From positions 1-31,207 of the IMG/VR virus record IMGVR_UViG_3300032896_000426: a DNA stretch of 31,207 nt; one strand, 5' to 3'. Of this stretch, positions 725 through 25,983 are shown piece by piece. This stretch comes from a virus. Every line of letters starts with the position of its first letter. Positions within the stretch are counted from its first letter, which is position 1. The translations under genes were made by a program, and so were the position numbers. The notes beneath the pieces were generated by a model. That model worked only from the letters and a program-made list of their open reading frames with translations, made no database searches and was not told where the DNA came from.

Positions 725-1471
725 TCAGATGCCCAGCGCTGCGCGGGTCTGCGGCCCTGCGATCCCGTCGACGGTCAGGTGCCTGTCGTTCTGGTAGTCC
801 CTGGTCGCCATGAGCGTGACCGGCCCGAACGCCCCGTCGATCGGTTCCAGGCCGCGTGCCCCGTACTCGCCGGAGTCGTGGAGCGCGCGCTGGAGGACGA
901 GGACGGCGCCGCCGGTGTCGCCTTCGCGGAGCACGACCCCGGCCGGCCACACGGCGTTTACTGACGCGGGCGCGGCGAAGAAATCACCGGCGAGCACGGA
1001 CATGTCGACCGGCGCGCCGGTGCCGGGATAGGTGTCGGTCCACTGGGTGCCGTCGGCCTGGAACGAGGCCTTGCAGGTGGCCGGGCCGCAGATGTGCTCG
1101 CCGGCCCCGTAGTGGGCGGTCAGCAGCCGCACGGAGGCGCGCTCCACGCCGAGCTGGCCGAGCTCGCCGAGCACCGAGGGCATGGTGTCGCGGGAGGCGT
1201 AGGCGACGGGCCGCTGCCCGATCTGGCCGTGGAGCCATGCGGCGCCGGAGGCGGGGGTGAGGTCGCCGGGCTCGATGTCGTCACCGGCCGCGATCTTCGC
1301 GCCGTGGGCTGCGGTCGCCCCGGTGACGGTGAGGATGACGAGCTGCGCCTGGGGGAAGCGGGCGCGGAGGGCGGCCTGGGTGGGCCAGTCGCCGTCGCCG
1401 TAGCCGAGGTAGGCCGTGTAGCCGGGCGGGAGATTTCCTACGGTGATGGAGTCGGGCATGGCGAGGGTCAC
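725..1471 (-). CDS. endolysin: GH25-like domain plus peptidoglycan-binding domain
   Basis: This 248-residue protein probably degrades host peptidoglycan at the end of infection. Residues about 9-165 match the glycoside-hydrolase-like (DUF1906/GH25-like) fold seen in actinophage lysins, with the hallmark HICGPATC at 126-133 and GTQWTDTY at 141-148, followed by the VDMSVLAGDFF strand. Residues about 180-246 are a PG_binding_1 repeat (LREGDTGGAVLVLQRAL, IDGAFGPVT, VDGIAGPQT). There is no signal peptide, so release should need a holin or other membrane permeabiliser; the genes just upstream are membrane proteins. The GTG start has an AGGAGG box and overlaps the preceding 22-residue ORF by four bases (GTGA). 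It is the last gene of the late operon. Confidence 0.88.
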   Translation of the reverse strand: MTLAMPDSITVGNLPPGYTAYLGYGDGDWPTQAALRARFPQAQLVILTVTGATAAHGAKIAAGDDIEPGDLTPASGAAWLHGQIGQRPVAYASRDTMPSVLGELGQLGVERASVRLLTAHYGAGEHICGPATCKASFQADGTQWTDTYPGTGAPVDMSVLAGDFFAAPASVNAVWPAGVVLREGDTGGAVLVLQRALHDSGEYGARGLEPIDGAFGPVTLMATRDYQNDRHLTVDGIAGPQTRAALGI

Positions 1472-1545: not shown

Positions 1546-1851
1546 CTAGCAGCCCAGGCTCTTGTGCAGCGTCACGAACCGCTCATACCACTCGTAACTG
1601 GTTTCCCTGCTCGGGTTGGCGGCAGCGTCGGCCGGGCGCGGCACCGGGACCGCCGTCACCCCGTCCACCACGCCGCAGAACTTGCGTTGCGTGTCCGCCA
1701 GCGCCTGCCGCCAGTGCGCGTCATCCGCCGCGATCGCCTGATGCCAGCGGGCATTGTCGGTCTGCACCTGGTGCGAGTTCCAGAACAGGCTGGCCAGCGC
1801 CAGCGCGATCGCGATCGACGTCAGCACCACGTAAGCCCTCCGCTCCCTCAT
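1546..1851 (-). CDS. membrane-anchored hypothetical protein in lysis region
   Basis: The 101-residue product has an N-terminal signal-anchor (about residues 6-24, YVVLTSIAIALALASLF) preceded by Arg-rich residues. The rest is a soluble domain of about 75 residues with a helical WHQAIAADDAHWRQALADTQ segment, predicted outside the cytoplasm if the positive-inside rule holds. Two cysteines are present, one at the very C-terminus. The ATG at 1851 overlaps the TGA of the preceding frame as ATGA. The anchor-plus-periplasmic-helix layout and the position next to the endolysin suit an accessory lysis protein (spanin-like or holin regulator). That role is inferred; no family recognised. Confidence 0.65.
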   Translation of the reverse strand: MRERRAYVVLTSIAIALALASLFWNSHQVQTDNARWHQAIAADDAHWRQALADTQRKFCGVVDGVTAVPVPRPADAAANPSRETSYEWYERFVTLHKSLGC

Positions 1852-2119
1852 CGCGGCCCCCACTCGGCGACGGCGGCGAAAGCGACGCCGAAGACGGTGA
1901 CGGCGAGGATTCCCCATGACCAGGCGCGGGAGCCGAGGGCCCGGACGACAGCAGCGTGAGCAGATGCGACAGCCCCGCCGGGGCCAGCAGGATCGCGCCG
2001 GTCGTAAGCGCCGTCGTAGACGGGTCGGTGCGCGTGCCCTGGACCAGGATCAGCCACACCCCCAGCCCCGTCGCGATCACGTCCCGCAGCAGCTTCCACG
2101 CGGTATCCGCCCACTTCAC
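1848..2119 (-). CDS. small multi-TM protein, probable -1 frameshift (holin candidate)
   Basis: Translation from the GTG at 2119 (GTGA overlap with the channel gene) gives two clear membrane helices, at residues about 13-28 (VIATGLGVWLILV) and 37-58. In the original frame the protein then runs into a Ser/Pro-rich tail and stops only at 1721, about 130 bases inside the next gene. In the -1 frame the same DNA encodes a third hydrophobic segment (SWGILAVTVFGVAFAAV) and stops at 1848 in an ATGA junction with the next start, the coupling used throughout this operon. The coordinates given assume that -1 product (about 90 residues). Programmed frameshifting, a mutation or a sequencing error could each explain it. 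Size, topology and place beside the endolysin suit a holin. Confidence 0.55.
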
Positions 2120-2409
2120 CGGCCCTCGCTCTCTGTCTTTTCCTGCTGCCGCATCTTCTTGTGCCGGTGCAGGTGCACGTGGCTGAAGGCGTTCGCCAGC
2201 AGCGGGATCGCCGTCAGCATCGTCGCGACCGCGATCAGCTTCCCCGTCGCGTTCCGCGGGGCCACATCCCCGTAGCCCGTGGTGGACGCTGTCGTGACCG
2301 CCCAGTAGACGCCGTTCAGCAGCCCCACATGCTGGGTGATGCCGAACGCCGCGCCGCCCGCGAGGATGCACGCGGCGGCGGCCGCCAGCGAGACGAGAGC
2401 GGCCTTCAC
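2116..2409 (-). CDS. minimal K+ channel-like pore protein
   Basis: This 97-residue protein has the layout of a two-helix potassium channel: TM1 at residues about 4-24, a pore helix VYWAVTTAS (34-42), the selectivity filter TTGYGD (43-48), and TM2 at about 57-78. A short His/Lys/Arg-rich cytosolic tail follows. TTGYGD is the K+ channel signature, and the length is close to the 94-residue chlorovirus Kcv channel. A functional tetramer would let K+ cross the inner membrane. The GTG start overlaps the upstream stop as GTGA, and the stop overlaps the next start the same way, so it is an integral part of the lysis cluster. It may depolarise the membrane during lysis or act in exclusion; both roles are inference. 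The signature itself is unmistakable. Confidence 0.85.
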   Translation of the reverse strand: MKAALVSLAAAAACILAGGAAFGITQHVGLLNGVYWAVTTASTTGYGDVAPRNATGKLIAVATMLTAIPLLANAFSHVHLHRHKKMRQQEKTESEGR

Positions 2410-2780
2410 ATGCGCCTCGCATGGTGCTCGCGGTGTAGCTGATCGAGTACCGCGCCGTGCCGTTCACGTGGATGATCACGCAGGTCAGGGTGATGCTTGT
2501 GGCATTTCTTCCCGACGCCGCCCGCAACCTCATATGCGCCCCACCGCAGGCAGGACGGCTTCTCATGGCAGGTGTTGTGGTAGTACCAGAGCGTCACGGC
2601 GGGGAAGATCATGATGTACGCCGCGCCGCCGAATCCCGAGTGGAAGCCGTACCAGCCGCCGGACTCGTTCCGGCTGCCCAGCAGCACGAAGAACTCGTTC
2701 CGCACGTGCGGCCACCAGTCCGCGCAGGCGAGGACGATGCACGCGGCAGCGAGCATCGCCGGGATCCGCCAGCGCTTCAT
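2406..2780 (-). CDS. small membrane protein with Cys/His-rich tail
   Basis: The 124-residue product has two hydrophobic stretches (about residues 7-20 and 50-66). A Cys/His cluster follows: C71, H72, C77, C93, H94, H96 and H97, a spacing compatible with metal binding. Related small proteins with an HNTCH...CHKHHP pattern occur near lysis genes of actinophages, but their function is unknown to me. The ATG at 2780 is preceded by GGAAGGAG, and the start overlaps the upstream stop as ATGA. The C-terminal 30 residues are rich in Arg, His and Asp. It could be a holin accessory or a membrane-associated metal-binding protein. Confidence 0.7.
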   Translation of the reverse strand: MKRWRIPAMLAAACIVLACADWWPHVRNEFFVLLGSRNESGGWYGFHSGFGGAAYIMIFPAVTLWYYHNTCHEKPSCLRWGAYEVAGGVGKKCHKHHPDLRDHPRERHGAVLDQLHREHHARRM

Positions 2781-3076
2781 CGCTGCTCCTTCCGCCGGTC
2801 GAGCCGCTCCCCGAGCCGCACCCCGGACCACGTCCCGATGTAGTCAGCCGCCAGCGTCGCCGCGATCACGGCCGCCGACAGCGCCACGTCCCGCCCGACG
2901 AGCACCGTGGAGCCGATGATCATCAGCGACGTGATCCGGCAGGCGTCCTGCGCCACGTCGCACGCCGCCGCCCGGTGCGCCCGGTAGGAGGCCTCGGCCT
3001 GGACCATGAGCACGCCGAGCACGTCCTGGCAGACCATCGCGGCCGCCGAGACGGCGGGGAGCCACCAGCCGCTCAC
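2777..3076 (-). CDS. small membrane protein, holin-like
   Basis: The 99-residue product carries hydrophobic segments at about residues 4-25, 48-61 and 64-80, and a basic C-terminus (GERLDRRKEQR). The closing ADYIGTWSGVRLGERL is a pattern I associate with small membrane proteins in actinophage lysis modules. The GTG start at 3076 overlaps the stop of the preceding tail gene (GTGA), and its own stop overlaps the next ATG. Several consecutive small membrane proteins make it impossible to say which one is the true holin. Length and topology are compatible. Confidence 0.65.
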   Translation of the reverse strand: MSGWWLPAVSAAAMVCQDVLGVLMVQAEASYRAHRAAACDVAQDACRITSLMIIGSTVLVGRDVALSAAVIAATLAADYIGTWSGVRLGERLDRRKEQR

Positions 3077-3564
3077 GCGATCCTCCGCGCCGACAGCGAG
3101 CTGCCCGCCCCCAGGATCGTCGAGTTCGCCCCGGTGCCGTTCGCCCAGTTCAGCCCAAACGTGCCGGCCGTGGCGCCCGTCCAGATCCTGCCCTGCAGCA
3201 ACATCCCCCCGTTGGGGCTCGACTGGTTGCCTGCGCTCGGCGTCGCCGTCCACGCGTACCCGTAGGCACTCGACCCGGTGCCCGCCAGGTCGAACACCGC
3301 CGTGTACGCGCCGGCGATACCGGCCGGCGCCGTCCACCCGAACCCGAACCCGCCCGTCGACACCTCGTAGTTCAGCGCGGCCTCGATGTCGTAGGTGGCG
3401 TTCGCCGCCAGGGTCACCTGCAAGTCCGGGTCAACCGACTGCGTCGACGTCGACCGGGTCGTCGCCGACGTCTTCCACGCCTCCAGCGGCGCGAACGACT
3501 GCAGCACCGCCGCGCCGGGCAGCGCGCCCGCGTTGATCACCGGGTACTGCTGATTGGACGGCAC
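3073..3564 (-). CDS. tail-tip or fibre accessory protein, beta-rich
   Basis: The 163-residue product is rich in Gly, Ala, Ser and Thr, with alternating strand patterns (LQVTLAANATYDIEAALNYE, GGFGFGWTAPAG, RIWTGATAGTFGLNWANG). That composition is typical of small beta-sandwich proteins following the minor tail genes in actinophages. There is no signal peptide or membrane segment. The GTG at 3564 has a GAGGAGG box upstream. Lying between the large tail-tip protein and the lysis cluster, it is most likely a receptor-binding or tail-tip decoration subunit. Exact function unknown. Confidence 0.65.
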   Translation of the reverse strand: MPSNQQYPVINAGALPGAAVLQSFAPLEAWKTSATTRSTSTQSVDPDLQVTLAANATYDIEAALNYEVSTGGFGFGWTAPAGIAGAYTAVFDLAGTGSSAYGYAWTATPSAGNQSSPNGGMLLQGRIWTGATAGTFGLNWANGTGANSTILGAGSSLSARRIA

Positions 3565-3575
3565 CGGCTACCTCC

Positions 3576-6500
3576 TCACAGCGCGATCACCGCGGCCGGG
3601 TAGACGGTCACCGCGGCACCCGCGGCCTGGCTCTTGACGACGCCGTTCACGCTGCGCGTCACGGTCGCGGCCTGCGGTGAGCTCGCCCCGGTGATGTCCG
3701 TGACGGTGACCCGCTCGCCGGCGATCATCACGTCGAACGGGAAGTCGGCCGCCGACGTGGTCCACAGCGGGTAGCCCGCATCGGTGGCGAAGGACAGCGA
3801 CGTCGCCGTGCTGCTGGCCGCGGACCCGAGTGCCGTGCCGTCCGTGGCGATATGCGACGTGCCCGCCTCGAACACCTGGTACGGCGATTCCGGGACCGCG
3901 TTCCATTCCGCCGTGTGATGGAGTCCGCCGAGTGCTTCCTTCATCCCCCACGCCAGCTGCTGAACCGGGTCGTACAGCACCAGGTCCGGCGCGTTCGCCA
4001 TCTCCAGGAAGTCGCCGATGTCCGCGCTGAGCACCGGGTAGTACAGGCTGTTGTCCTGGATCTGCGGCCGGGCGAGGTTGACGGGGATCACCGGCCAGCG
4101 CGCCTCGTCGACCGTGCCCGTGTGCACCTTCCACCAGGCGAGGTCCGCCAGCTGACTGTCGAGCTCGACGTTGCAGTCGAGGGTGTCCGCGTAGTCGCCG
4201 ACCCCCACTGGCGGCGGGCTGATGGACATCGCCGAGCCGTCGTTCAGCTGCGCCTGGTAGGTAGCGCCATCCGAGCCCGTGCCCGCGGTGCGGGTCAGCG
4301 ACCAGTCGTTCCTCGTCAAGGCGTCGTCGTAGGTGGGGTCAAGGCCGGAGTCGTCGGCGCTGCCGTTCACCCCGCCGGGCTCGGACTGCGCGTAGTCCAG
4401 CGTCACCGCCACCGCCTGGTTGTACATGCTGGCCAGCGTCCGGTAGCCCAGCGCCAGGATCTGCCGCGGCTCGAAAATCTGCCCGGCGTCCGCGTCCTCG
4501 CAGGCCTGCAGCAAGTTGGACAGCGTGTCGATCGCCTGCGCGCCCATCGCCGCCGAACCGGACGGGGCGCCGATGATGCGCGCCTGGTAGCCGTTTTCGG
4601 CCGCCAGCCGCGCGAACCGCACCGCGGCGGGCTCCCCGGTCCATGCCGACAGCGCCCCGGTCGGAACCCCGTTCGGCGTCGTGTAGGAGAACAGGTCATA
4701 CAGCTGCTGGTAGGCGGTCAGCACCGCGCAGTGCCCGATCGCCGTCGACGTCAGCGCCCCCGTCGGCGCGAACTGCACCCCCGTCACCTTGCCGACCGTG
4801 CCGCTGACGGTGCCGGACGCGCCGTCCGGCGTCGCGGCCCCGGGAGCCCAGCCGTCCACATGCCACGTGATATTGCCGCCGCCCGCGTCCTGCAGCGCGA
4901 TCGAGATCAGGATCGGGTTCCCCGCGGCACCGAAGGCCACCGTCTCGTTGAACACGCCCGTGCCCGCCGAGTTGTAGCCGGTCACGTTCAGGCCGCCGCC
5001 GGACTCATAGAACAGTGCCAGCGTCGTGATCGTGCCCGTGGTGGACACCGCGCAGATAGCCGCGCCGTTCGCCTCTCCGCCGGACGGGATGTCCAGCAGG
5101 AAGAAGACCTGGTTGTCCGTCCAGCTGCCCGCGTAGGACACCGCGCCGGAGAACGAGGCCCCGTTCACTTCCGGCAGCGGCGCCGAGCACGCGAAGTCGC
5201 TGCTGTCGGCCAGGCTCGGCGACCCGGAGATCTGCATCGGCAGCCCGCCGATCCCCGACCCGAAGACGGTCGCGCCCGCGGCGTCTTCCATCGGCCAGTA
5301 CGCCACCGGCGCCTTGCTCCCGGCCAGCAGCGTGATCGCCCGCTTCATCGGCGAGTCGAGCGGCGCGTTGCCCTGGGTGATGCGCCGCAGCACCCCGCCT
5401 GCCTGCGCCGCCACCGCCATGTCCGCGCCTGTCACGTCCCACTTCGGCGGCTGCGCGGACATCTCGCCGTGGAACCGGTAGTCCCTGCTGCTGATCGCCG
5501 CGGTGCCGTTCAGCGTCCACGTGTTGCCCTGCGCGTCGGCGAACGACGTGGCGCCCGCGGACTGGGCGGAGAAGACCGGGCCGGCTTCCAGCGTGCCGCC
5601 GATGCCGGAGTAGAGGCGGAACTCGCTCACGCCGCCGAGCAGGCTGGCGGGCGTCGCCCCGTTGTTGAACCAGGATTCGCTGAACGCGGAGTTGTAGCCG
5701 ATCGTCACCGGCGCCGAGCCCGTCCCGCCGCCGAAGATGCTCGTCGAGCCGTAGACCTGCGCGGCGCCCAGCTGCGTCCACGTGCCGCCGAGCGACGTGC
5801 CCGTGTAGAAAGTGACCGTGCCCGTCGACACCTGCAGCGTCGCGCGCACCGCCGCCGTGCCGTACGGCAGCGGGATGCTCGACGTCGCCGACGCGATCGA
5901 CGACCCGTCCGGCGTCCACACCAGGCCGATCGTGCCCGTGCTGTTCAGCACCAGCACCCACGACCGGTAGCTGCTCGCGCTGTTCCACTTCGACGCCAGC
6001 AGCGTGTTGCGCCAGTCGGACAGGTGCAGCTGCAGCTGGATGTCAATGTCGCCGGTGATCGACAGCCCGGTCGCCGGCGGGCACGAGACGTAGCTGACCG
6101 CGTCGTCCTCCAGGCGCAGGTAGTTGTTCTGCGCGGGGACGGAGAACCTCACGCCGGTGTTGCGGCCGAGCAGCCCGTAATAGGGCGAGACCGGGTTCTT
6201 CGGGCTGAACCTGCCGTCGCGGTTGTTCCACTCCCAGGTGCTCCTTCCCGGGTTCGCCTGGTCCGAGGATTCGTCCTGGCGGCCGCGGGTCAGCGTCACC
6301 GCGGGCTGCTGCCCTTCCCGCTGGTACACGTAGGTGCTGACGTCCGTCCAGAGGCCGCCGAGGTTCAGCTCGCAGTCCAGGTCAAGCGGCGAGGCCGGGA
6401 ACGGCGCGGCGGCCGCCGCCTGGTACGCGCCGGCTGACAGCGGGACGGCCAGCGCGTCGCCGAAGAAATCCTGGCTGCCCGGGCTGATGCCGAAGCCCGC

Positions 6501-8063
6501 CAGGTCCAGGCCTGCGGCGGCCAGCGGCGACGCGGACGACAGCCGCAGCCCGTAGGCGGGCGCCAGGCTCCCCGGCGTGGTGACCGCGGGCTGCGTGAGC
6601 GGACTGGCCAGCTTCGGGTCAAGGTCCCATCCCAGCGCCTGGGTGCCGCTGGCCTCATTGCCCGTCGCGGCGCGCCACGCGGTCAGCGACGGGTAGGCCG
6701 TGCCGCCCCAGTCGATGGCGAACGTCCCGGCGGCGGCGTAGTAGTCGTTCCCGGCCAGGTACAGCTCGCTCGTGGTCCACGCCTGCGCGGCCGACACGAC
6801 CGGGCCGCCGGACGCCCCGTAGAAGATGTTGTTGAGCACCTGGACGTTCTCGAGCGTGCCGTCGACGGGGAACGACAGGCACGGCGGCTGCACGGAGCCG
6901 TTCGGCTGGCTGACACACGTGTTGCCGTAGATCGCCAGGTTGCTCATGTTGCCGCCGGGGGTGATCTCCCCGTAGTACCCGGCGACGGCCAGCGGGTTCT
7001 GCCCGTTGCCCCACGTCAGGTTGTACCGCACGGTATTCGGCCCGGCGCCCCAGTAGGAGTCGGCGGCGCCGCCCCAGGCGAGGATGCCCGCGCCGCCGTT
7101 GCCGTAGCTGATGTTGTACTGCACGGTGCAGCCGGTGCAGTCGACGTCCAGGTCGAACCCGTCGCCGTCCGCGCCGGTCCCCGACCCGTTGCCGGACGAG
7201 ACGCAGTTCTCGATCACCGAGTTGCGGCTGGCGTAGAACCAGCAGCCGACCGGCCCCTCATAGGTGTCGCCGTTGTCCAGGCCGTTGCCGCTGGTCACGC
7301 AGTACTCGATCACCGACGCGTCACAGTTCCCGAGGATGATCCCCGACCCGGTGAACACGCCGGTGATCAGCGACGAGCCCAGGTTGTCATTCGCCGTGCA
7401 GTTGCTCACGACCACGCTGCGGTGGTTATAGGCCGGGGCCGAGGGATTGAACGCGGTGTTGCTGTAGGTGCAGATCCCGGCGTAGACGTTCCCGCTCGCG
7501 TCGCAGCCGGAGACCGTGATCCCGTTCCAGCCGTCGGCGGGGCCCTGGCCGCCGAACAGGATCCCGTACTGCCAGCCGCCCGACGCCTGCACGTTCTGGA
7601 CGGTGACCGCGGGCAGCGGGCCGGTGCCCGAGCAGAAGAACGAGATCCCGTCCCAGGCGCCGGAGTCAGTGCCCGGAATGGCCAGGTTCTCGATGGCGTA
7701 GCCGCCGACGTTGTAGCCGTAGACCGCATTGCCGGACGTGTTCGCGATCGTCGCTTCGCCGGTGCCGTAGGACCCGATAGTTATCGGCTGCGCCGCGGTG
7801 CCGGGCCACGTCAGCTCCAGAGTGGTGCCGGTCCACGCCTGACCGCCCTGGAACAGGACCGCGTCGCCCGGGTTCAGGCGCTGCGCGTTGACCCGGGCGA
7901 TCGTCTGCCATGGCGCGGCGGCACTGGTGCCGTTGTTACTGTCGGAGCCGGATGGTGACACGTAGTAGACGGTCCCGGACGGCGCCGGGGAAGCCGGGGC
8001 AGCCGTCAGCGCCCGGGGCAGCCGCAGCTGCCGCGGGACGCGAGCCGGCACCGGGATCTGCAT
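3576..8063 (-). CDS. giant minor tail protein with N-terminal beta-helix and LamG-like domains
   Basis: This 1495-residue protein is a mosaic. Residues about 30-555 begin YYVSPSGSDSNNGTSAA and continue with repeating N-G-I/V strand units (NCTANDN, NCVSSGNGSG), the right-handed parallel beta-helix of pectate-lyase and depolymerase tailspikes. From about 562 (LDLDCELNLGGLWTDVS) it reads as an actinophage minor tail protein with the NNRDGRFSPKNP motif. Residues about 670-860 and 900-1105 look like two concanavalin/LamG-type lectin folds (APVAYWPMEDAAG). The rest (1110-1495) continues the tail-hub part. The beta-helix probably binds or cleaves a surface polysaccharide, but I cannot identify catalytic residues. 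The ATG at 8063 starts one base after the upstream stop. Confidence 0.82.
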   Translation of the reverse strand: MQIPVPARVPRQLRLPRALTAAPASPAPSGTVYYVSPSGSDSNNGTSAAAPWQTIARVNAQRLNPGDAVLFQGGQAWTGTTLELTWPGTAAQPITIGSYGTGEATIANTSGNAVYGYNVGGYAIENLAIPGTDSGAWDGISFFCSGTGPLPAVTVQNVQASGGWQYGILFGGQGPADGWNGITVSGCDASGNVYAGICTYSNTAFNPSAPAYNHRSVVVSNCTANDNLGSSLITGVFTGSGIILGNCDASVIEYCVTSGNGLDNGDTYEGPVGCWFYASRNSVIENCVSSGNGSGTGADGDGFDLDVDCTGCTVQYNISYGNGGAGILAWGGAADSYWGAGPNTVRYNLTWGNGQNPLAVAGYYGEITPGGNMSNLAIYGNTCVSQPNGSVQPPCLSFPVDGTLENVQVLNNIFYGASGGPVVSAAQAWTTSELYLAGNDYYAAAGTFAIDWGGTAYPSLTAWRAATGNEASGTQALGWDLDPKLASPLTQPAVTTPGSLAPAYGLRLSSASPLAAAGLDLAGFGISPGSQDFFGDALAVPLSAGAYQAAAAAPFPASPLDLDCELNLGGLWTDVSTYVYQREGQQPAVTLTRGRQDESSDQANPGRSTWEWNNRDGRFSPKNPVSPYYGLLGRNTGVRFSVPAQNNYLRLEDDAVSYVSCPPATGLSITGDIDIQLQLHLSDWRNTLLASKWNSASSYRSWVLVLNSTGTIGLVWTPDGSSIASATSSIPLPYGTAAVRATLQVSTGTVTFYTGTSLGGTWTQLGAAQVYGSTSIFGGGTGSAPVTIGYNSAFSESWFNNGATPASLLGGVSEFRLYSGIGGTLEAGPVFSAQSAGATSFADAQGNTWTLNGTAAISSRDYRFHGEMSAQPPKWDVTGADMAVAAQAGGVLRRITQGNAPLDSPMKRAITLLAGSKAPVAYWPMEDAAGATVFGSGIGGLPMQISGSPSLADSSDFACSAPLPEVNGASFSGAVSYAGSWTDNQVFFLLDIPSGGEANGAAICAVSTTGTITTLALFYESGGGLNVTGYNSAGTGVFNETVAFGAAGNPILISIALQDAGGGNITWHVDGWAPGAATPDGASGTVSGTVGKVTGVQFAPTGALTSTAIGHCAVLTAYQQLYDLFSYTTPNGVPTGALSAWTGEPAAVRFARLAAENGYQARIIGAPSGSAAMGAQAIDTLSNLLQACEDADAGQIFEPRQILALGYRTLASMYNQAVAVTLDYAQSEPGGVNGSADDSGLDPTYDDALTRNDWSLTRTAGTGSDGATYQAQLNDGSAMSISPPPVGVGDYADTLDCNVELDSQLADLAWWKVHTGTVDEARWPVIPVNLARPQIQDNSLYYPVLSADIGDFLEMANAPDLVLYDPVQQLAWGMKEALGGLHHTAEWNAVPESPYQVFEAGTSHIATDGTALGSAASSTATSLSFATDAGYPLWTTSAADFPFDVMIAGERVTVTDITGASSPQAATVTRSVNGVVKSQAAGAAVTVYPAAVIAL

Positions 8064-13751: not shown

Positions 13752-14684
13752 TTACGGTTCCAAAGCTGCCTGATTGACGTCGGCCATCGCGGCGAAGGTC
13801 GCGGAGCTGAACGTGCCCGCGGTAATCATCCGCAGGTAGCGGTCCACCGTCCCGGTGACGGCCACCCGCTGCCAGGCGGGCGCGGCGGTCATCGCGGTGA
13901 ACGCGGCCAGCGTCGACCAGGTCGAGTTGTCCGGCGCGTGCTGCACCGTCGCCGTCACGCTCGTCCCGGTGAACCCGGTCACCTGCAGGTAGGCCTGCGC
14001 GCCGTAGACGGTCTGCAGCGTCCACGTCCACGTCGGCGCCACCGAGTAGGTGATCGAGATCGTCTGGCCGGACGGAACCGTGTACGTGCCGTCGCCGGTG
14101 CCCGCCTCGACACCGTTGACGTAGACGGCCGACACGGTGCCGCCGCTGATGACCACCGACGCCGCGATCGGCGACGTGTTCGTGACCGGCGTCGTCGACG
14201 CGGGCACGGCGGGCGTGGTGAACCCGGCGCCCTGGTCGAGGCTGGAGCCGTCCGTAGCGGTCGTATCGGTGCGCAGGCCGGGCGTGAGCGCCACGCCCCA
14301 CTCCAGGCCGTAGCCGTCGCCCTGGCCCTCCACCTTCATTGTCAGCGCGCCGTCAGCGGCCCGGTTCGGGTCGTAGTTCACCTGCCTGGCGACCAGGGCC
14401 GCCACGGGATTGCCAATGGCCTGCGGCGGCAGCAGGGCTTCCATCGCCGTGTCCGCGGTCGGCAGCGCGGACAGCACCGGGTGCGCGTTCGCCACATCCA
14501 TGAACACGGTGAAGCCCATCGACCCGTCCCGCAACAGCGGCAGCCGCGAGTGCGCCAGCTGGGTGATGTCGGTGACGTCGCCGAGTGCCACGCCGCCGTT
14601 GATCTGGTCGATGGCCGACACGTCCCCCGATATGTCGTAGCCGCCCACCAGGAAGCGCGCGCCCAGGCCCGACTGCTTGCTCAC
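13752..14684 (-). CDS. major tail protein, long paralogue with C-terminal beta domains
   Basis: The 310-residue product starts KQSGLGARFLVGGYDISGD, the usual opening of actinophage tail-tube subunits. Its first ~150 residues carry the tube fold, with DVTDITQLAHSRLPLLRDGS and the RAADGALTMKVEGQ signature. The remainder (about 175-310) is strand-rich (PVTNTSPIAASVVISGG, YTVPSGQTISITYS, ATVQHAPDNSTWSTLAAF) and resembles surface-exposed decoration domains. The first half is paralogous to the 138-residue protein at 12736. The GTG start at 14684 directly abuts the previous TAG. It may be the main tube protein with decoration, or a minor tube-end subunit. Confidence 0.75.
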   Translation of the reverse strand: MSKQSGLGARFLVGGYDISGDVSAIDQINGGVALGDVTDITQLAHSRLPLLRDGSMGFTVFMDVANAHPVLSALPTADTAMEALLPPQAIGNPVAALVARQVNYDPNRAADGALTMKVEGQGDGYGLEWGVALTPGLRTDTTATDGSSLDQGAGFTTPAVPASTTPVTNTSPIAASVVISGGTVSAVYVNGVEAGTGDGTYTVPSGQTISITYSVAPTWTWTLQTVYGAQAYLQVTGFTGTSVTATVQHAPDNSTWSTLAAFTAMTAAPAWQRVAVTGTVDRYLRMITAGTFSSATFAAMADVNQAALEP

Positions 14685-19158: not shown

Positions 19159-20289
19159 CTAACTTGCCTTCGGGCCCAGCACCACGACCGGGCTCACCGT
19201 GCTGCTGTCACTGCTGTTCTCCGGGGTCACCGGTCCCGGAACGAAATACCGGCCATCCACGCGTGCCCGGAACCGGTAGTTAGTGACGTCCTGGACGAAC
19301 CCGGAGCCGCGTCCGGAACGGTCCACCGTCAGCTCCATCCGGTCACCGATCAGGTAATTCCGGAAATCGGCCAGCGCGATATCCCCGGTGTCGCCGAGCG
19401 CCGGTGAATGGTCGGAAACGAACGCGGGCAGCCCGAGAATCGACGGGCCGGTGTCGTGGCCGTCGCCCAGGTTCAGCCACGGGGGCAGCGCCGCCGGGGC
19501 ACCGGCCGTCGCCGCCGAGCCGCCCGGCACCAGGTACGCCTGCAGGACATCGGTCAGCACCGACTCCGACACCAGCCAGCCGATATCGGTGACGCCCGCC
19601 TGCAGCCCCGCCGCGAGCGCCGCCGGGTGAAGCGCGCTGGCCATGCCGGCGATGTCCGCCGACCCCACCGCGCCGGACGCGGCCCGGGCTACCGTCACCG
19701 CGCAGCCGGCGTTCAGCACTCCCTGAGGCTGTCCCGCCCCCGTGCCGCTGATGAAGTAGTCCTCCTCCGCCCAGCTGTAGCCGAGCGCCACCACGCGGGA
19801 GAAGAAGTCGCCGAGCGCCCCGGCCGCGTCGGAATCCAGCTCATCCGGCACCCCGACGAAGGCCGCCAGCTTGTTCGCCTCCAGCAGCACCCGGCCGAAT
19901 GACGGGCTGGACGACGGGATCGACGCGTCATTCTCGGTGAACGCGAACGTGAGGCCGCCGAGCGCCTGGCTGCCGGAATCCTGGGTGGCATTGTCCAGGA
20001 CAGGCACGCCGAGGCGCAGCGACCCCATCGGCAGCACCATCGCCCGCGGCCGGATGACCGCGGGCGTGACGTACGCCATCACCTGGGCGCGCAGCTGCTC
20101 GGGCACCAGGAAACCGCCCTCGGACGGGACGCGTTCCGTCCAGGCGTTCATGATGAACTGCCGCGCCGACGCGTCTTGCTGGTCGTAGACCGCCGCCAGG
20201 AACGCATGCCAGGACCGGGCCCACGGCTGGCCGTCCAGCCGCGCGCCCGGGGCGTCCGCCCTGTAATGCGGCGAGTCGCGCAGATTCAT
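19159..20289 (-). CDS. HK97-type major capsid protein, short paralogue
   Basis: At 376 residues this has the HK97 capsid fold: SEGGFLVPEQLR at the start of the core, LPMGSLRLGVPVLD, ANKLAAFVGVPDELDSD in the spine region, EDYFISGTGAGQPQGVLNAG, and NYLIGDRMEL plus FRARVDGRYF at the C-terminal end. The N-terminal region is only about 50 residues and lacks a delta (scaffold) domain. It aligns end to end with the 505-residue paralogue immediately upstream, and only six bases separate the genes. It could form pentamers or another specialised position in the shell. The ATG at 20289 is the obvious start. Confidence 0.88.
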   Translation of the reverse strand: MNLRDSPHYRADAPGARLDGQPWARSWHAFLAAVYDQQDASARQFIMNAWTERVPSEGGFLVPEQLRAQVMAYVTPAVIRPRAMVLPMGSLRLGVPVLDNATQDSGSQALGGLTFAFTENDASIPSSSPSFGRVLLEANKLAAFVGVPDELDSDAAGALGDFFSRVVALGYSWAEEDYFISGTGAGQPQGVLNAGCAVTVARAASGAVGSADIAGMASALHPAALAAGLQAGVTDIGWLVSESVLTDVLQAYLVPGGSAATAGAPAALPPWLNLGDGHDTGPSILGLPAFVSDHSPALGDTGDIALADFRNYLIGDRMELTVDRSGRGSGFVQDVTNYRFRARVDGRYFVPGPVTPENSSDSSTVSPVVVLGPKAS

Positions 20290-20295
20290 CTCCGG

Positions 20296-21813
20296 TCAGG
20301 AGCCCGTGGTGGTGTCGAGCAGGACGTACGGCGACAGGGTGTTCTCCGATTCGTTCGCCGGGGTGATCGCCGACTGCACCCACGGGCGGCCGTCGAGCCG
20401 CTCAATGACCCGGTAGGCGACCATGTCGTCCTGAAACTTGTACTCGGCAGAGCTGGCCACCTGCATTGCCTGCCGGTCGCCGACCAGGTACTTGGACAGG
20501 TCGTAGAGCCCGAGCGACCCGGCCTGCGTGGTGCTGCTGATCGACGGCACCTTTTCGGAGATGATCCCGGGACGGCCGAACAGGGTGAACGTCCGGCCGT
20601 CCTCGATGCCGCCCGGCGCGCCGTCGATCGCCGACATGCCCGGCAGGAACACCGGAGGCGCGATCGCCGTGCCGCCCGGTGCCACGTTCAGCTGCGCCAG
20701 CTGCGGGATCGTGTCCGGCGCGGCCAGCCACACCGATTTCTTCAGCGACCCGGGCCACATCCGGGAGAACACCGCCGCGATGTCCGCGAACACGATCTCG
20801 TGCGCGGTCGCCGACGACTGCGCCACCGTGACCGCCCCCGGCGCGTTGACCAGGCCGAGCGGCTGGTTGACGCCGTCGCCGGTGATGAACGCCAGGTCGC
20901 GGAAGAAAGCCAGTGCCTGCGGGAAGAACGTGTTGAACCACACGTCCATCGCCGTCACCGAGTCCTGCAGCAGCTCATTCGGGATCTCGGTGTAGGCGGT
21001 GAGCTTGTTCGCGATCAGGACGAGGCGGGAAAACGACGGCGCCGACGTGCTCAGCGCCGCGCCCTCAGCCGTCCACGCGGCGGAAACGCCGCCGAAGACG
21101 CTGCCCACGTGGGTCGTGTCGTCGATCGTGGGCAGCGGCACCCGCAGGCTGTCCATCGGGATCGTGGTCGCCTGCCCGCTGACCACCGACTCCTCAAGCG
21201 TCAGCGCCAGGATCGTCGACCTGAGCGTCTCCGGGACGAGAAAGCCGCCCTCGGCGGGAATCCGCTCGGACATGCCCGCATTCCGGATCTGCAGCGTGTT
21301 CGCGATCTTCGCCTTGAGCGCCAGCAGCCTGGCGGCAAGCTCGCTGTTGCCGTCCCTGGCCGCGACCGCCTCCCCCTTCAGGGTCGCCCAGATGAACTCG
21401 CGCAGGCTGTCGCCGTACTCGGCGTCCTCCAGCTCGGCGCCCATCGCCGTCGCGCTGAACAGGTGATGCTGCTCGAACACCGCCGCCGCGTTCCGCAGCC
21501 GCGACCTCGACAGCGCCTGCTGCCTCTTCTGGCCGCCGAACGCCGCAGCCGCGCCCGGATGCCAGCCCTCTGGCGGCCGCGCGCCGAACCGGTCGGCCTG
21601 GTCGCGCATGAAACCCTGCAGGCCCGCCTGGACCTGCTCGTCAAACTGCTTCCGCAGGTCCCCGCCGTCCGCAGTGCCGGCGAACTTCTCGACGTAGTTC
21701 CTGACCAGGCCGGGGAACGAGCCGTCCTCAAGCACCGCCTTCAGCCGGGGCTTGTCATGGAACAGCTCTTCGAGCTCGTCTGGGGCCTGCGGGGTGGCCG
21801 CTGGGGTTGTCAC
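20296..21813 (-). CDS. HK97-type major capsid protein, long paralogue with delta-like domain
   Basis: The 505-residue protein carries a helical N-terminal region of about 170 residues (KPRLKAVLEDGSFPGLVRNY, helices to about 170), probably the delta or scaffolding domain removed by the prohead protease. The HK97 core follows from about 185: AEGGFLVPETLRSTIL, PMDSLRVPLPTIDD, ANKLTAYTEIPNELLQDS, DLAFITGDGVNQPLGLVNAP, SKYLVGDRQAMQ and AYRVIERLDGRPW. The GTG at 21813 overlaps the protease stop (GTGA). With the protease just upstream this is the main shell protein, probably the hexamer former. Confidence 0.9.
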   Translation of the reverse strand: MTTPAATPQAPDELEELFHDKPRLKAVLEDGSFPGLVRNYVEKFAGTADGGDLRKQFDEQVQAGLQGFMRDQADRFGARPPEGWHPGAAAAFGGQKRQQALSRSRLRNAAAVFEQHHLFSATAMGAELEDAEYGDSLREFIWATLKGEAVAARDGNSELAARLLALKAKIANTLQIRNAGMSERIPAEGGFLVPETLRSTILALTLEESVVSGQATTIPMDSLRVPLPTIDDTTHVGSVFGGVSAAWTAEGAALSTSAPSFSRLVLIANKLTAYTEIPNELLQDSVTAMDVWFNTFFPQALAFFRDLAFITGDGVNQPLGLVNAPGAVTVAQSSATAHEIVFADIAAVFSRMWPGSLKKSVWLAAPDTIPQLAQLNVAPGGTAIAPPVFLPGMSAIDGAPGGIEDGRTFTLFGRPGIISEKVPSISSTTQAGSLGLYDLSKYLVGDRQAMQVASSAEYKFQDDMVAYRVIERLDGRPWVQSAITPANESENTLSPYVLLDTTTGS

Positions 21814-23153
21814 GTGAATGCCTCCTTCAAGGCGTTGCCGAGCTTCTCCAGGTCCACCCCGGAGGTCAGGTTCATGTGCTGGCTGTTGTCCGCGTCCTCA
21901 TCGCCGTGGCCGGCGTCCTTGAGGTGGGCGCGCAGGTGCGCCTCGACGCCCGCGCGGTCGCCGCCGGGGATGTCCGCGCCGGACAGCCTGGCCAGCCCGT
22001 TGTTGCAGGCGTTCACGTTCGCCGGGGCGCCCTTGGTCTTGTGGTGCGGGAACTTGTAGTTGCCCTTCTGGTCATCGGCGTCGTCATCGCCCTCGCGGTG
22101 CGGGGCAGACGCCGCCTCATCGGATTCCCAGGCGTGGCAGTACTCCAGGACCGTGTCGTCGTTCGGCATCGCCGCCACCGCGGCCGGGCCGTCCCACGCC
22201 TCATCGACCGTCGCCGTGTGATGGACCGGGAGCGCCTTGTCGGCCAGCGGCATCGACTCGATGCCCAGCACCCGCCGCCGCGCGCGGTCTCCCGTGGCGC
22301 CGTCGTCCTGACCGTCCTCGTCCGCGCCGTCGTCATCGCCGCTGTCCGGCGAGTAGGTGCCGGAGCCGCCGCAGCCGGGGCACTTCATGCCGTTCTTGCC
22401 GGTGCCCGGGTGCTTCAGCCGCCCGCTGCCGCCGCACGTCTTGCACGGCGCCCCGCCGCCCTCGCCGTCCGCGGCGCGCACCCAGGACGGGACGCGCGCG
22501 AACATCGACAGGTCAAACGACGCGGCCGTACCCTCCGGCGCCGGGCGCTCCAGCAGCCGGTCAGCCAGGCCGGCCTCGACGGCCTCGGCCGCCTTGTACC
22601 AGGTCTCCGCCTGCATCGCATCCCGCCAGCCGGGCGCGGGCTTGCCGGTGTGCGCCGCGTAGATGTCGGCCAGGTTCCCCGACACCTGGTCGAGCAGGTC
22701 CGCGACCTCCCGCATGTCCGCCGCGTTGCCGATGCAGATCCCCGACGCGTCGTGGATCATCAGCATCGACCCCGGGCTGACGACGCGCTCCTTGCCCGCC
22801 TGGGCGATGAAGCTCGCCGCGGACGCCGCCAGGCCGTCCACGACCGTCGTGACCGGGCCCGGGCGCTGCGCGATCGCGTTGTAGATCGCGATCGCGTCGA
22901 AAACGTCGCCGCCCGGGCTGTTGATGTGCACGTGCAGCTCGCGGGACGCAGGGAGCGCGGCGAGCTGCGCCACGAAGTCGCCGGCCGACACGCCGTCGCT
23001 GAACCACGAGCCGCCGATCTCGTCGTACACGTCGACCCGGGCCGGGCCGTCGCCGTCGTCGAGGTTGACGATCCGGTACCAGGGGCGTCCTTGCGCCGCA
23101 GGACGTCCCGCGAGGGCCTTCAGCCGCCGGATCTGCTCGGCACGGTTCATCAT
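21810..23153 (-). CDS. ClpP-type prohead protease with DnaJ-like zinc motif and C-terminal domain
   Basis: The 447-residue protein has a ClpP/S14 protease fold at residues about 25-205: HINSPGGDVFDAIAIYNAI, the catalytic serine in GLAAS (S111) and a histidine in MLMIHDA (H134). Residues 237-266 carry two CxxCxGxG units (C237/C240 and C258/C261), a DnaJ-type zinc motif. The rest (about 300-447) is a conserved-looking domain (PVHHTATVDEAWDGPAAVA, NACNNGLARLSGADIPGGDR) with an acidic linker. It probably matures the capsid by removing the delta-like domain. The ATG at 23153 overlaps the portal stop (ATGA). It is much longer than usual prohead proteases (about 200-250). Confidence 0.87.
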   Translation of the reverse strand: MMNRAEQIRRLKALAGRPAAQGRPWYRIVNLDDGDGPARVDVYDEIGGSWFSDGVSAGDFVAQLAALPASRELHVHINSPGGDVFDAIAIYNAIAQRPGPVTTVVDGLAASAASFIAQAGKERVVSPGSMLMIHDASGICIGNAADMREVADLLDQVSGNLADIYAAHTGKPAPGWRDAMQAETWYKAAEAVEAGLADRLLERPAPEGTAASFDLSMFARVPSWVRAADGEGGGAPCKTCGGSGRLKHPGTGKNGMKCPGCGGSGTYSPDSGDDDGADEDGQDDGATGDRARRRVLGIESMPLADKALPVHHTATVDEAWDGPAAVAAMPNDDTVLEYCHAWESDEAASAPHREGDDDADDQKGNYKFPHHKTKGAPANVNACNNGLARLSGADIPGGDRAGVEAHLRAHLKDAGHGDEDADNSQHMNLTSGVDLEKLGNALKEAFT

Positions 23154-25105
23154 CGGGCCGCTCCAACCGCGTTCCAGGCGGCCAGCCGCCGCCGCAGGTC
23201 ATCCATCCGCGCCGACGGGCCGTCACCGCGGCCTGCGCCGCCCCCGGCCGACGGCGTGAACTGGTGCTCGTGCATGGTTTCCCAGTCGCCGTGATCGGCA
23301 TCGACCGTGCCGATCCACGCCCGCGGCGCCTCACCGAGCTCCGCTTCCGCTAGGTACCGGTGATGACCGTCGATCAGCTTCAAAAGCGGGTCACCCGGCG
23401 TCTTGACCAGCAGCAGCGGCTTGAGTTTCTTGCCCTTCCGGCGCCGCGCCACGAACTCGGCGACGTGACCGGGGTCGGCGCCGTCCATCCACTGCAGGTC
23501 CGGCTCGATGTGCTCCAGCGGCACCCGCACCGGCCCTGTCCAGGTGGCGTGATGCATCCACGCCATCGCGCTCGCCGGATAGTCCTCCGCGACCTGCTCG
23601 AACACCTTCGCGGCCGCGTTCTTGTCCATCACCTGAGGCGCGCCGCCGCCCGCGGGAAGCGCCCGGCGGGGCGCCATGACGCCCAGCGCGCGGGCGTCCA
23701 TGTCCGCCCACAGCGGCGACCCCCACCCGGCCGCGGACCGCAGCGCCCCCTGCGCGGCCGCCGGGGCGGCAGGAGCCGCATCAGTGGCGGCGGGCGCGGC
23801 CAGCGGAGCCGTCCACCGCGGCGGCAGCGCCGGCTGGCTGCTCAGCGTCAAAGCCACCTTCATGTCCGGCAGCCCCACCGCCGCCAAGACGTCGTGCTGG
23901 TCATAGCCCGCCGTCACGAACGCCAGCGCCGCGTTCGCCTTCGCCGTCAGCTCCAGCGCGTCCGCTTCCCGGTTCTCGACGCGCGGGTAGATGAAGTCGA
24001 ACTCCACGTCCTGCGCGGTCTTCCCGAACAGCGGCAGGAACTGGGTGTTGAGGACGTTCCGCCACCGCTTCAGGCGCGGCTCAACCTTCCACGAGGCGAA
24101 AACCTCCTGCCCCGTCTGCGCGTTCGCCCGGTTCACGTCATCCGACACGCCGGTCATGACTTTCGCCATGCCGAGCGCCTCCCGGATGATGTCCCGCATC
24201 GTCTCGCGGAGCTTCGCGAAATCCATGTCCTTAACTGAGGACTTGTCGTTCGGCACCCACGTGACGCCCGCCTCGAGGACCGCGATCCGGTGCGCCCGCG
24301 CGACCCCCCGGTGCGTCTCCCGCCACTGGGACACGATCCGGTTGAACTCGCCTTCCTCGAACGAGTGGTCCAGCTGGATCACGCCGCCCGGCTCCGCGGA
24401 GTTGACGAAGAAGTTCCGGTTCCACTGGCCGGCGTAGTCGGCCGCCTCGATGTCGGTCAGCACCGACTGGACCGGGCCGCAGCCGCCGTACAGGTCCTCC
24501 GGGTCGCTGAACCGGTTGAAAATGACCTCGGTCGGCAGCAGCGGCACCTGCTCACGGCCGTCCGGTGAGGTGTAGATCCAGCCGGCGAGGAACTTGTTGC
24601 GGTCCGGGACCGGCGTCATCCGGTCCGGGCGCACCGGCCACAGCCCCAGCGGGATCTTCGACGCGCCCTCCGCGAAGTCCACGACCCAGTGGCACTTCCC
24701 GGTCTGCGTCATCCAGATGTCCGACAGCTCGAACAGCATGAACCGGTCGAAAATGGGCTTCCTGATGCCGTCCACGACCACGCTGGCGGGCATCTCCAGC
24801 ACGTTCAGCGCCGCGTGCACCGTCACCTGCTTGCGCTGGTCGCTGCCCCGGTCCGACGTCGTGTACCGCTGCTGCGGGCCCGGCTTGCGGAACAGCACCC
24901 AGTCCTGCTCCGCCACCGACTCCGCGATCAGCCCCACATTCGAGCGGACCGTGCCGTTCGTCTTGTAGGTGCGGATCAGCGCCAAGTCCGGGTTCGCGCC
25001 CGCCGTCATCCCCGGGGCAATCATCATCCCGCCGCCCATCGGCACCGGCGCGCTGCCCTGGGCGGCGTTCCGCGGGCCCAGCATCATGCCCAGCAGCGAG
25101 CCCAT
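23150..25105 (-). CDS. portal protein with C-terminal ParB-like domain
   Basis: The 651-residue product starts at the ATG at 25105, which overlaps the upstream TGA. Residues about 40-440 are an HK97-type portal: YKTNGTVRSNVGLIAESVAE, IFDRFMLFELSDIWMTQTGK, FNRFSDPEDLYGGCGPVQS, LRETMRDIIREALGMAKVMT. A Pro/Ala linker leads to a second domain at about 500-610 with VPLEHIEPDLQWMDG, KLKPLLLVKTPGDPLLKLID and DGHHRY (from 579), the pattern of ParB/Srx-like nuclease or NTP-binding domains. The portal forms the dodecameric DNA gate; the ParB-like tail could act on DNA during packaging or after entry. The downstream protease overlaps it by four bases. Confidence 0.87.
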   Translation of the reverse strand: MGSLLGMMLGPRNAAQGSAPVPMGGGMMIAPGMTAGANPDLALIRTYKTNGTVRSNVGLIAESVAEQDWVLFRKPGPQQRYTTSDRGSDQRKQVTVHAALNVLEMPASVVVDGIRKPIFDRFMLFELSDIWMTQTGKCHWVVDFAEGASKIPLGLWPVRPDRMTPVPDRNKFLAGWIYTSPDGREQVPLLPTEVIFNRFSDPEDLYGGCGPVQSVLTDIEAADYAGQWNRNFFVNSAEPGGVIQLDHSFEEGEFNRIVSQWRETHRGVARAHRIAVLEAGVTWVPNDKSSVKDMDFAKLRETMRDIIREALGMAKVMTGVSDDVNRANAQTGQEVFASWKVEPRLKRWRNVLNTQFLPLFGKTAQDVEFDFIYPRVENREADALELTAKANAALAFVTAGYDQHDVLAAVGLPDMKVALTLSSQPALPPRWTAPLAAPAATDAAPAAPAAAQGALRSAAGWGSPLWADMDARALGVMAPRRALPAGGGAPQVMDKNAAAKVFEQVAEDYPASAMAWMHHATWTGPVRVPLEHIEPDLQWMDGADPGHVAEFVARRRKGKKLKPLLLVKTPGDPLLKLIDGHHRYLAEAELGEAPRAWIGTVDADHGDWETMHEHQFTPSAGGGAGRGDGPSARMDDLRRRLAAWNAVGAAR

Positions 25106-25287
25106 CAGGGTATCTCCGTGTCCAGCGGCACCGCGCCGGGCGGATAGGCGCTCTCCGGCAACGGCGGAAGCGGCACGCCCGGCCATGCCATCCGGGGCTG
25201 CGCTTCCAGGTCTTCGCGCATCCTGCGCAGGCGCGGCGATGGGTCGAGAGACAGGTAACCGAAGCCTTGGAGGATGCGCCGCAGCAC
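25105..25287 (-). CDS. 60-residue hypothetical protein
   Basis: The GTG at 25287 follows the stop of the preceding gene by two bases and gives 60 residues starting VLRRILQGFGYLSLDPS. The rest (MREDLEAQPRMAWPGVPLPP) is Pro-rich and ends in an acidic tail. Its TGA overlaps the portal ATG (TGATG), so the two are coupled. No family recognised and too short for a confident role. It may help produce the portal or be a minor packaging protein. Confidence 0.5.
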   Translation of the reverse strand: MLRRILQGFGYLSLDPSPRLRRMREDLEAQPRMAWPGVPLPPLPESAYPPGAVPLDTEIP

Positions 25288-25623: not shown

Positions 25624-25983
25624 GTGGTGACGATGGCCCCGCTGCGCGACGCGAGCGAGCTGCTCTACCCCGCCGTCTACGCCACCGTCATGTCCCTCGG
25701 CATCGACCTCGGACCGGACAACGCGGGCGGCAAGGACAGCGGCATGGCCAAGCTCGCCCTGCGCCTCGCCCGCGTCATCGACCAGGCGCCCGACGGCAAA
25801 GCGCAGGCATCCGCGCTCTGGCACCTCGGCGCCGAGCTCCACAAGGTCCTCGAATCACTCGGCGCATCCCCCGCCGCCCGCGCCGCCATCAAGCGCGGCG
25901 CCAGGGACAGCGACGGCAAGGGCAAGCCCAAGACCCAGCTCGACATCATGCGCGAGAACCGCGCCCGCAGAACCCGTGCCTAA
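25624..25983 (+). CDS. terminase small subunit
   Basis: The 119-residue protein resembles actinophage small terminase subunits: APLRDASELLYPAVYATVMS, helical MAKLALRLARVIDQAP, a helical ALWHLGAELHKVLESLG with ASPAARAAI, and a basic tail. It recognises the packaging site and loads the large subunit onto DNA. It overlaps the large subunit by eight bases. Candidate starts are GTG at 25624, GTG at 25627 and ATG at 25633; AGGTGGTG upstream of the ATG makes 25633 quite likely. It is transcribed away from the portal operon, unlike in most related phages. Confidence 0.8.
   Translation: MVTMAPLRDASELLYPAVYATVMSLGIDLGPDNAGGKDSGMAKLALRLARVIDQAPDGKAQASALWHLGAELHKVLESLGASPAARAAIKRGARDSDGKGKPKTQLDIMRENRARRTRA

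Follow-up and report, generated by a model that had tools for sequence, protein, structure and literature searches.

A putative miniature K+ channel and its Cys/His membrane partner in the late-gene region of a tailed actinophage

Phage genes for K+ channels were catalogued by Greiner et al. (2018), whose list includes Streptomyces phage BillNye, Mycobacterium phages Myrna and Phabba, Vibrio phages, Acinetobacter phage ME3 and Pseudomonas phage ventosus; any function was called speculative (PMC6163359). The chlorovirus channel Kcv is thought to sit in an internal membrane of the virion and to act at entry (PMC3369850, PMC7019647), and its depolarization of the membrane has been proposed to exclude other viruses by blocking second infections (PMC7019647). 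In a published tree the phage channels are separated from those of eukaryotic viruses, including algal ones (PMC7650704).

The channel gene and its neighbourhood

The stretch analysed here (the window) covers an entire IMG/VR record, 31,207 bases long and 70% GC. Its terminase matches those of Arthrobacter, Gordonia and Microbacterium phages, and a head protease, capsid, tape measure and tail proteins are also encoded; judged from these genes, the window is of the tailed actinophage type. The terminase and portal genes lie on opposite strands (23150-25186, minus, and 25976-27463, plus), and two tandem genes (19159-20289 and 20296-21813) both match the major-head-protein family phrog_10. The genes around the channel gene, kch, follow one another on the minus strand in this order, the filter being listed beneath its gene:

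3576-8063, minus strand: tail protein
3073-3564, minus strand: tail-associated protein of 163 residues, upstream of the module; homologues follow the same tail gene in many relatives
2777-3076, minus strand: mem_2777, a 99-residue protein with two transmembrane segments, in the same place in the phage relatives L002 (58%) and L003 (54%)
2406-2780, minus strand: mem_2406, the 124-residue Cys/His partner membrane protein (ATG at 2780; its stop overlaps the kch start in GTGA)
2116-2409, minus strand: kch, a 97-residue K+ channel pore with two transmembrane segments (TM1 helix, residues 2-26; pore helix, 30-42; filter, 43-48; TM2 and tail helix, 54-96)
2266-2283, minus strand: selectivity filter TTGYGD, residues 43-48 of kch
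1848-2119, minus strand: holin-like protein with two transmembrane segments in frame from the GTG at 2119 and a third in the -1 frame ending at 1848
1546-1851, minus strand: 101-residue protein with one N-terminal transmembrane segment; its start overlaps the -1-frame stop of the holin-like gene
725-1471, minus strand: endolysin-type protein with a glycoside-hydrolase-like N-terminus and PG_binding_1

The open reading frame of kch starts with GTG at 2409 and stops at 2116-2118, exactly where a reading of the sequence alone (the sequence-only reading) had placed a miniature K+ channel. The product scores 52.4 bits against Pfam Ion_trans_2 (PF07885; E = 5.1e-14; curated cut-off 22.5) and matches phrog_14690 'Kef-type K+' (E = 1.9e-15); among PDB sequences, phmmer returned KvAP (2e-8) and KcsA (~1e-6). 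A chance reading frame is ruled out by these profile matches and by 28 distinct homologues of the same subfamily, and the GC3 of 0.94 is the coding signature of a phage whose window has 70% GC. The GTGA overlaps that the sequence-only reading had noted with both neighbours are present, at 2409-2406 with the upstream gene and at 2119-2116 with the downstream gene. The filter region reads TTASTTGYGD. Other members with an intact filter carry TVGYGD, or SVGYGD in one case, so that the window has T where those have V. An HxH motif in the cytosolic tail is common to the window and to L254, L259 and L333-335.

A monomer was predicted with AlphaFold using a 20-member alignment (A5), in which a Pro in TM2 is invariant. 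The model has a pLDDT of 90, and its helices, together with the filter read in the reading frame, bear out the earlier description of a TTGYGD filter, a pore helix and two flanking helices within 97 residues. The best 50 Foldseek matches listed from the PDB were all K+ or NaK channels, including open KcsA (TM 0.82) and NaK2K (TM 0.73); the E-values are only 3e-3 to 9e-3 (probability 1.0), as expected because the protein is so small. Taken from sequence and model, the assignment of kch as a K+ channel pore is well supported; its role is what we infer below.

The endolysin-type gene matches PG_binding_1 (1.6e-11) and a PHROG endolysin family (1.7e-12), and the profile of its N-terminal domain is common to the lysins of L254, L259 and L003. 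Two other membrane genes separate it from kch. For the lysins encoded by the window, L259 and L270 no N-terminal transmembrane or SAR segment is predicted, so a separate holin would be needed and a K+ channel could only modulate its action. In the holin-like gene, the layout with the third transmembrane segment in the -1 frame recurs in L002 (13473-13740) and L003 (14540-14841), and in all three phages the -1-frame stop overlaps the start of the next gene. This third segment is conserved and hydrophobic, with RAWSWG common to the window and L002, and is a candidate for a programmed -1 frameshift or an overlapping gene. No canonical slippery heptamer was found for it, the sole XXXYYYZ site being out of register.

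The channel subfamily, its partner and its genomic placement

The subfamily was found by scanning with an alignment of phage channels (A1) and then with a tighter alignment (A2), and occurs in soil actinophage contigs of up to 143 kb; when viral contigs were scanned for close relatives with single queries (the channel, the protein encoded upstream of it, or the lysin), no match appeared. In 26 of the 29 distinct members the partner gene lies directly upstream of the channel, and its stop usually overlaps the channel start; the three exceptions (L090, L258 and L261) form one clade. In the window the partner has two predicted helices followed by a C..C...C..HHP Cys/His cluster. Two reverse scans with the Cys/His protein, using queries taken from channel-linked members, yielded eight new contigs, seven of them with a channel directly downstream. 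The Cys/His family can also stand alone: two sets of actinobacterial genomes (395 and 396) gave seven clear chromosomal matches, only two of them with a channel. These two pairs (L337/L353 in G130 and L339/L352 in G141) lie on ordinary chromosomal contigs of two actinobacteria, flanked in both cases by pirin-like and CrcB-like genes (both names given by eye). No PDB fold match was obtained for the partner, nor was it found in GenBank phages by tblastn with three versions of the query. Two variant arrangements were seen. In L256 (3695-4351) a partner fragment and the channel share one open frame of 218 residues, a possible partner-channel fusion, although a full reading of the partner may be frame-shifted; L329 (3959-4476) has two tandem Cys/His membrane proteins and no channel.

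A frequent third neighbour is a relative of VIT1-like transporters (best E = 2.1e-7, above the cut-off in L332). This truncated protein of the Fe/Mn transporter-like VIT1 family has three or four transmembrane segments and often precedes the pair, which suggests a three-gene ion-related unit. Examples of the gene are as follows:

L254, 3205-3624: VIT1-like gene
L259, 3236-3667: VIT1-like gene
L249, 3094-3594: VIT1-like gene
L332, 3534-3980: VIT1-like gene
L099, 3984-4439: VIT1-like gene

The position of the channel varies. In L254, L259 and L270 its stop overlaps the start of the lysin gene; the L270 lysin is a GH25 muramidase (E = 8.6e-23) and that of L259 gives a weak Rv2525c-like match. In 11 distinct members it immediately precedes the gene for the tail terminator, which was recognized by a PHROG connector match. 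In L333-335, whose structural genes, judged from translations, appear to be shared with the window, the pair lies among those genes and not in the lysis module, which indicates that its position shifts within regions of late genes. The earlier placement of the gene inside a lysis cluster holds for the window, and the lysis link recurs in L254, L259 and L270, but most relatives have the channel before the tail terminator. Lysis linkage is real but not universal, and the shared features are the partner protein and a late-gene position.

In a tree with KcsA as the outgroup, the window channel groups with L254 and L259 (support 94/82) and L270 falls elsewhere. A second tree was calculated without the KcsA outgroup and without the filter columns. 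Its main splits stay, but the grouping of the window with L254 and L259 is not resolved once the filter columns are removed. In this second analysis a single group of the four lysis-linked members was rejected (AU p = 0.024); read from the channel tree, lysis placement has arisen at least twice. Direct capture of an ordinary actinobacterial channel with two transmembrane segments is not favoured: ordinary channels of hosts lie outside the subfamily, and the two chromosomal channels that have a partner branch from within the phage sequences.

The phage relatives nearest to the window, L002 and L003, conserve the flanking genes and are missing the channel; L002 is also without the Cys/His protein. 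None of the 80 phage loci that share the tail protein of the window carries the channel, which is therefore dispensable. In L003 the very junction that the channel occupies in the window holds an HNH-type reading frame (13916-14515, minus strand; named by eye) that runs on the opposite strand.

An intact T/S-x-G-Y-G-D filter with its flanking aromatic residues is kept in 25 of the 29 members, the window included. The four filter-less homologues are as follows:

L324, 4374-4721: channel homologue with TVGGD
L327, 4368-4748: channel homologue with TVGGD
L332, 4330-4914: channel homologue with TAGC
L336, 4318-4644: channel homologue with TAGC

The partner gene is retained in each of them, and each has a Cys adjacent to the Tyr of the pore helix. 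A single clade for them is disfavoured (AU p = 0.031), moderate evidence given the long branches. In two lineages, then, four members have lost the filter but not the pair, so selectivity for K+ is dispensable in some members, and judged from the filters conduction would usually, not always, be retained. The dN/dS values of the broken-filter pairs are 0.41 and 0.60 (saturated); among L333-335, which have intact filters, selection is purifying (~0.25-0.33). The sequence-only reading of the module was right about the channel itself; the conserved upstream partner and these broken-filter relatives it overlooked.

Possible roles of the channel pair

Our best reading, held tentatively, is that a late-expressed K+ pore and its partner set the late membrane potential and the loss of K+, and hence the timing of lysis. 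The kch product would be the pore-forming subunit of a tetramer selective for K+. It would be expressed late from the structural/lysis operon along with the partner encoded at 2406-2780, which probably assembles with it or gates it. Once open in the host membrane, the pore would let K+ run down its gradient and keep the membrane close to the equilibrium potential of K+. Membrane potential has long been known as a holin trigger, and in the window phage and the lysis-linked relatives the channel would most likely tune holin firing by delaying or advancing the loss of potential, while adding loss of K+ and turgor as infection ends. Which way the potential shifts depends on the K+ outside the cell: a low concentration would hyperpolarize the membrane and could delay holin firing, and a high one would depolarize it and could advance firing. 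Membrane depolarization, as suggested earlier from the sequence, is one possibility but is not automatic, because a K+-selective pore clamps the membrane toward the K+ equilibrium potential and may hyperpolarize it. A K+ pore is far too narrow for kch itself to release the lysin, and the channel as the holin proper is ruled out on this ground. The reading builds on the pore fold, the intact filter, the overlapping genes, the recurring pair, its late-gene position, the lysin genes that repeatedly abut the channel and the purifying selection; late expression, conduction, a complex with the partner and an effect on lysis timing are what we infer. Against lysis timing, most members lie before the tail terminator, so that the lysis linkage may just reflect late expression; the four filter-less members keep the pair, and the channel is dispensable.

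Late exclusion of superinfecting or competing phages, in which the pair would alter the membrane potential and so block DNA injection, seems unlikely. The Kcv precedent (PMC7019647), the two-gene membrane exclusion systems of other actinophages (Sbash gp30/31 and CarolAnn gp43/44, unrelated proteins) and the sporadic, mobile occurrence of the channel gene speak for it. The exclusion genes of temperate phages, however, lie in lysogeny or early regions, whereas the pair lies in late structural/lysis operons, where exclusion would bring little gain; moreover, the Sbash and CarolAnn membrane proteins have four transmembrane segments and are not described as K+ channels.

We give as little credence to homeostasis of K+ or turgor in the late phase (K+ for virion assembly or DNA packaging, or osmotic adjustment) with no specific role in lysis. 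The pirin-like and CrcB-like neighbours of the pair in the two chromosomes, the VIT1-like relative that often precedes it and the tail terminator beside most phage copies are consistent with such a function, which nevertheless leaves both the lysin adjacency in two lineages and the retention of the pair after filter loss unexplained.

That the channel serves as a scaffold or regulator of the partner or the holin, with K+ conduction secondary and the pore retained in only some lineages, is improbable. The destroyed filters of L324/L327 and L332/L336, with the pair kept and the Cys beside the pore-helix Tyr in all four, point in this direction, but 25 of the 29 members, including the window, have the filter and aromatic residues intact, and the degenerate genes look less constrained by their saturated dN/dS. 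Passive or accidental cargo from an insertion hot spot, useless to the phage, is the least credible account and very improbable: the HNH-type frame at the same junction in L003 and the lack of the channel there in L002 and in the tail-protein relatives would suit it, but recurrent pairing across many divergent phages, overlapping starts and stops and purifying selection do not, and the earlier argument against passive carriage is upheld by translational coupling in the lysis cluster and by a lysin adjacency that recurs with at least two origins.

One further scheme, which we regard as rather unlikely in its entirety, would combine several of these elements: a two-component K+ channel, consisting of the pore and a Cys/His subunit gated by metal, redox state or pH, would have been recruited at least twice into a lysis cassette as a timer and would have decayed in two other lineages to a pseudochannel that lacks the filter and is maintained for the regulatory contact it makes with its partner. 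If the channel does set lysis timing, as in our tentatively preferred reading, membrane potential would be linked to a dedicated phage ion channel.

Comparison with known systems

Like the channels listed by Greiner and coworkers, kch is a small K+ channel pore protein of a tailed phage. The name of phrog_14690, which kch matches, is the annotation of BillNye, Muntaha and Myrna; BillNye and Muntaha share ~36% identity or less with kch (BLAST). Muntaha, BillNye, Myrna and LAh8 split from the kch subfamily with support of 99/94 in the first tree, and Muntaha and Myrna with 100/99 in the second. The BillNye and Muntaha channels lie among tRNAs and hypothetical genes and that of Myrna among nucleotide-metabolism genes, all without the partner protein. 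In GenBank phages, 40 records had matches to kch; identity was below 60% in every case, and no match extended over 80% of the query. The subfamily was absent from this collection at the sensitivity of tblastn. Among the papers searched, none described a K+ channel within the lysis module of a phage or a conserved partner for such a channel; this absence is weak evidence.

With the pore module of KcsA, NaK and MthK, kch shares the fold, the filter layout and the aromatic residues before the filter. It differs from this module in having T instead of V at the second filter position, a short His-rich tail and a partner gene; in an alignment with KcsA made by eye the position of E71 would be T, with no E71 equivalent, and the TM2 of kch carries a Pro.

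Kcv (PBCV-1, ATCV-1) is likewise virus-encoded, with 82-94 residues, two transmembrane segments, a pore helix and a TxxTxGY/FG filter (PMC3369850, PMC7019647), and the 97 residues of kch fall within the single pore module of ~80-100 residues that characterizes the Kcv type (PMC7019647). The close likeness to Kcv drawn in the sequence-only reading stands for form (size and fold) but probably not for descent, given the published separation of phage from algal-virus channels (PMC7650704), and probably not for mode of use. Unlike Kcv, kch lies in a late operon with a partner. To our knowledge, tailed phages have no internal virion membrane.

Sbash gp30/31, CarolAnn gp43/44 and lambda RexAB resemble the kch pair as two-gene phage units in which a membrane protein is proposed to alter the membrane potential (PMC6426596, PMC6426606). 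These units differ in their four-segment membrane proteins not described as K+ channels, a non-membrane partner and lysogenic expression. Holin/endolysin cassettes also have small membrane genes directly before the lysin gene, as is the case for the channel in L254, L259 and L270; in contrast to holins, kch has a K+ pore fold too narrow for lysin, and the window has separate holin-like genes. The family offers handles in a co-expressible partner, a late or lysis position that predicts timing, chromosomal homologues and filter-less variants that separate conduction from other roles. K+ channels of phages are already known; what is new is the partner conserved upstream, the repeated placement next to a lysin gene, the copies on chromosomes and the relatives that have lost the filter.
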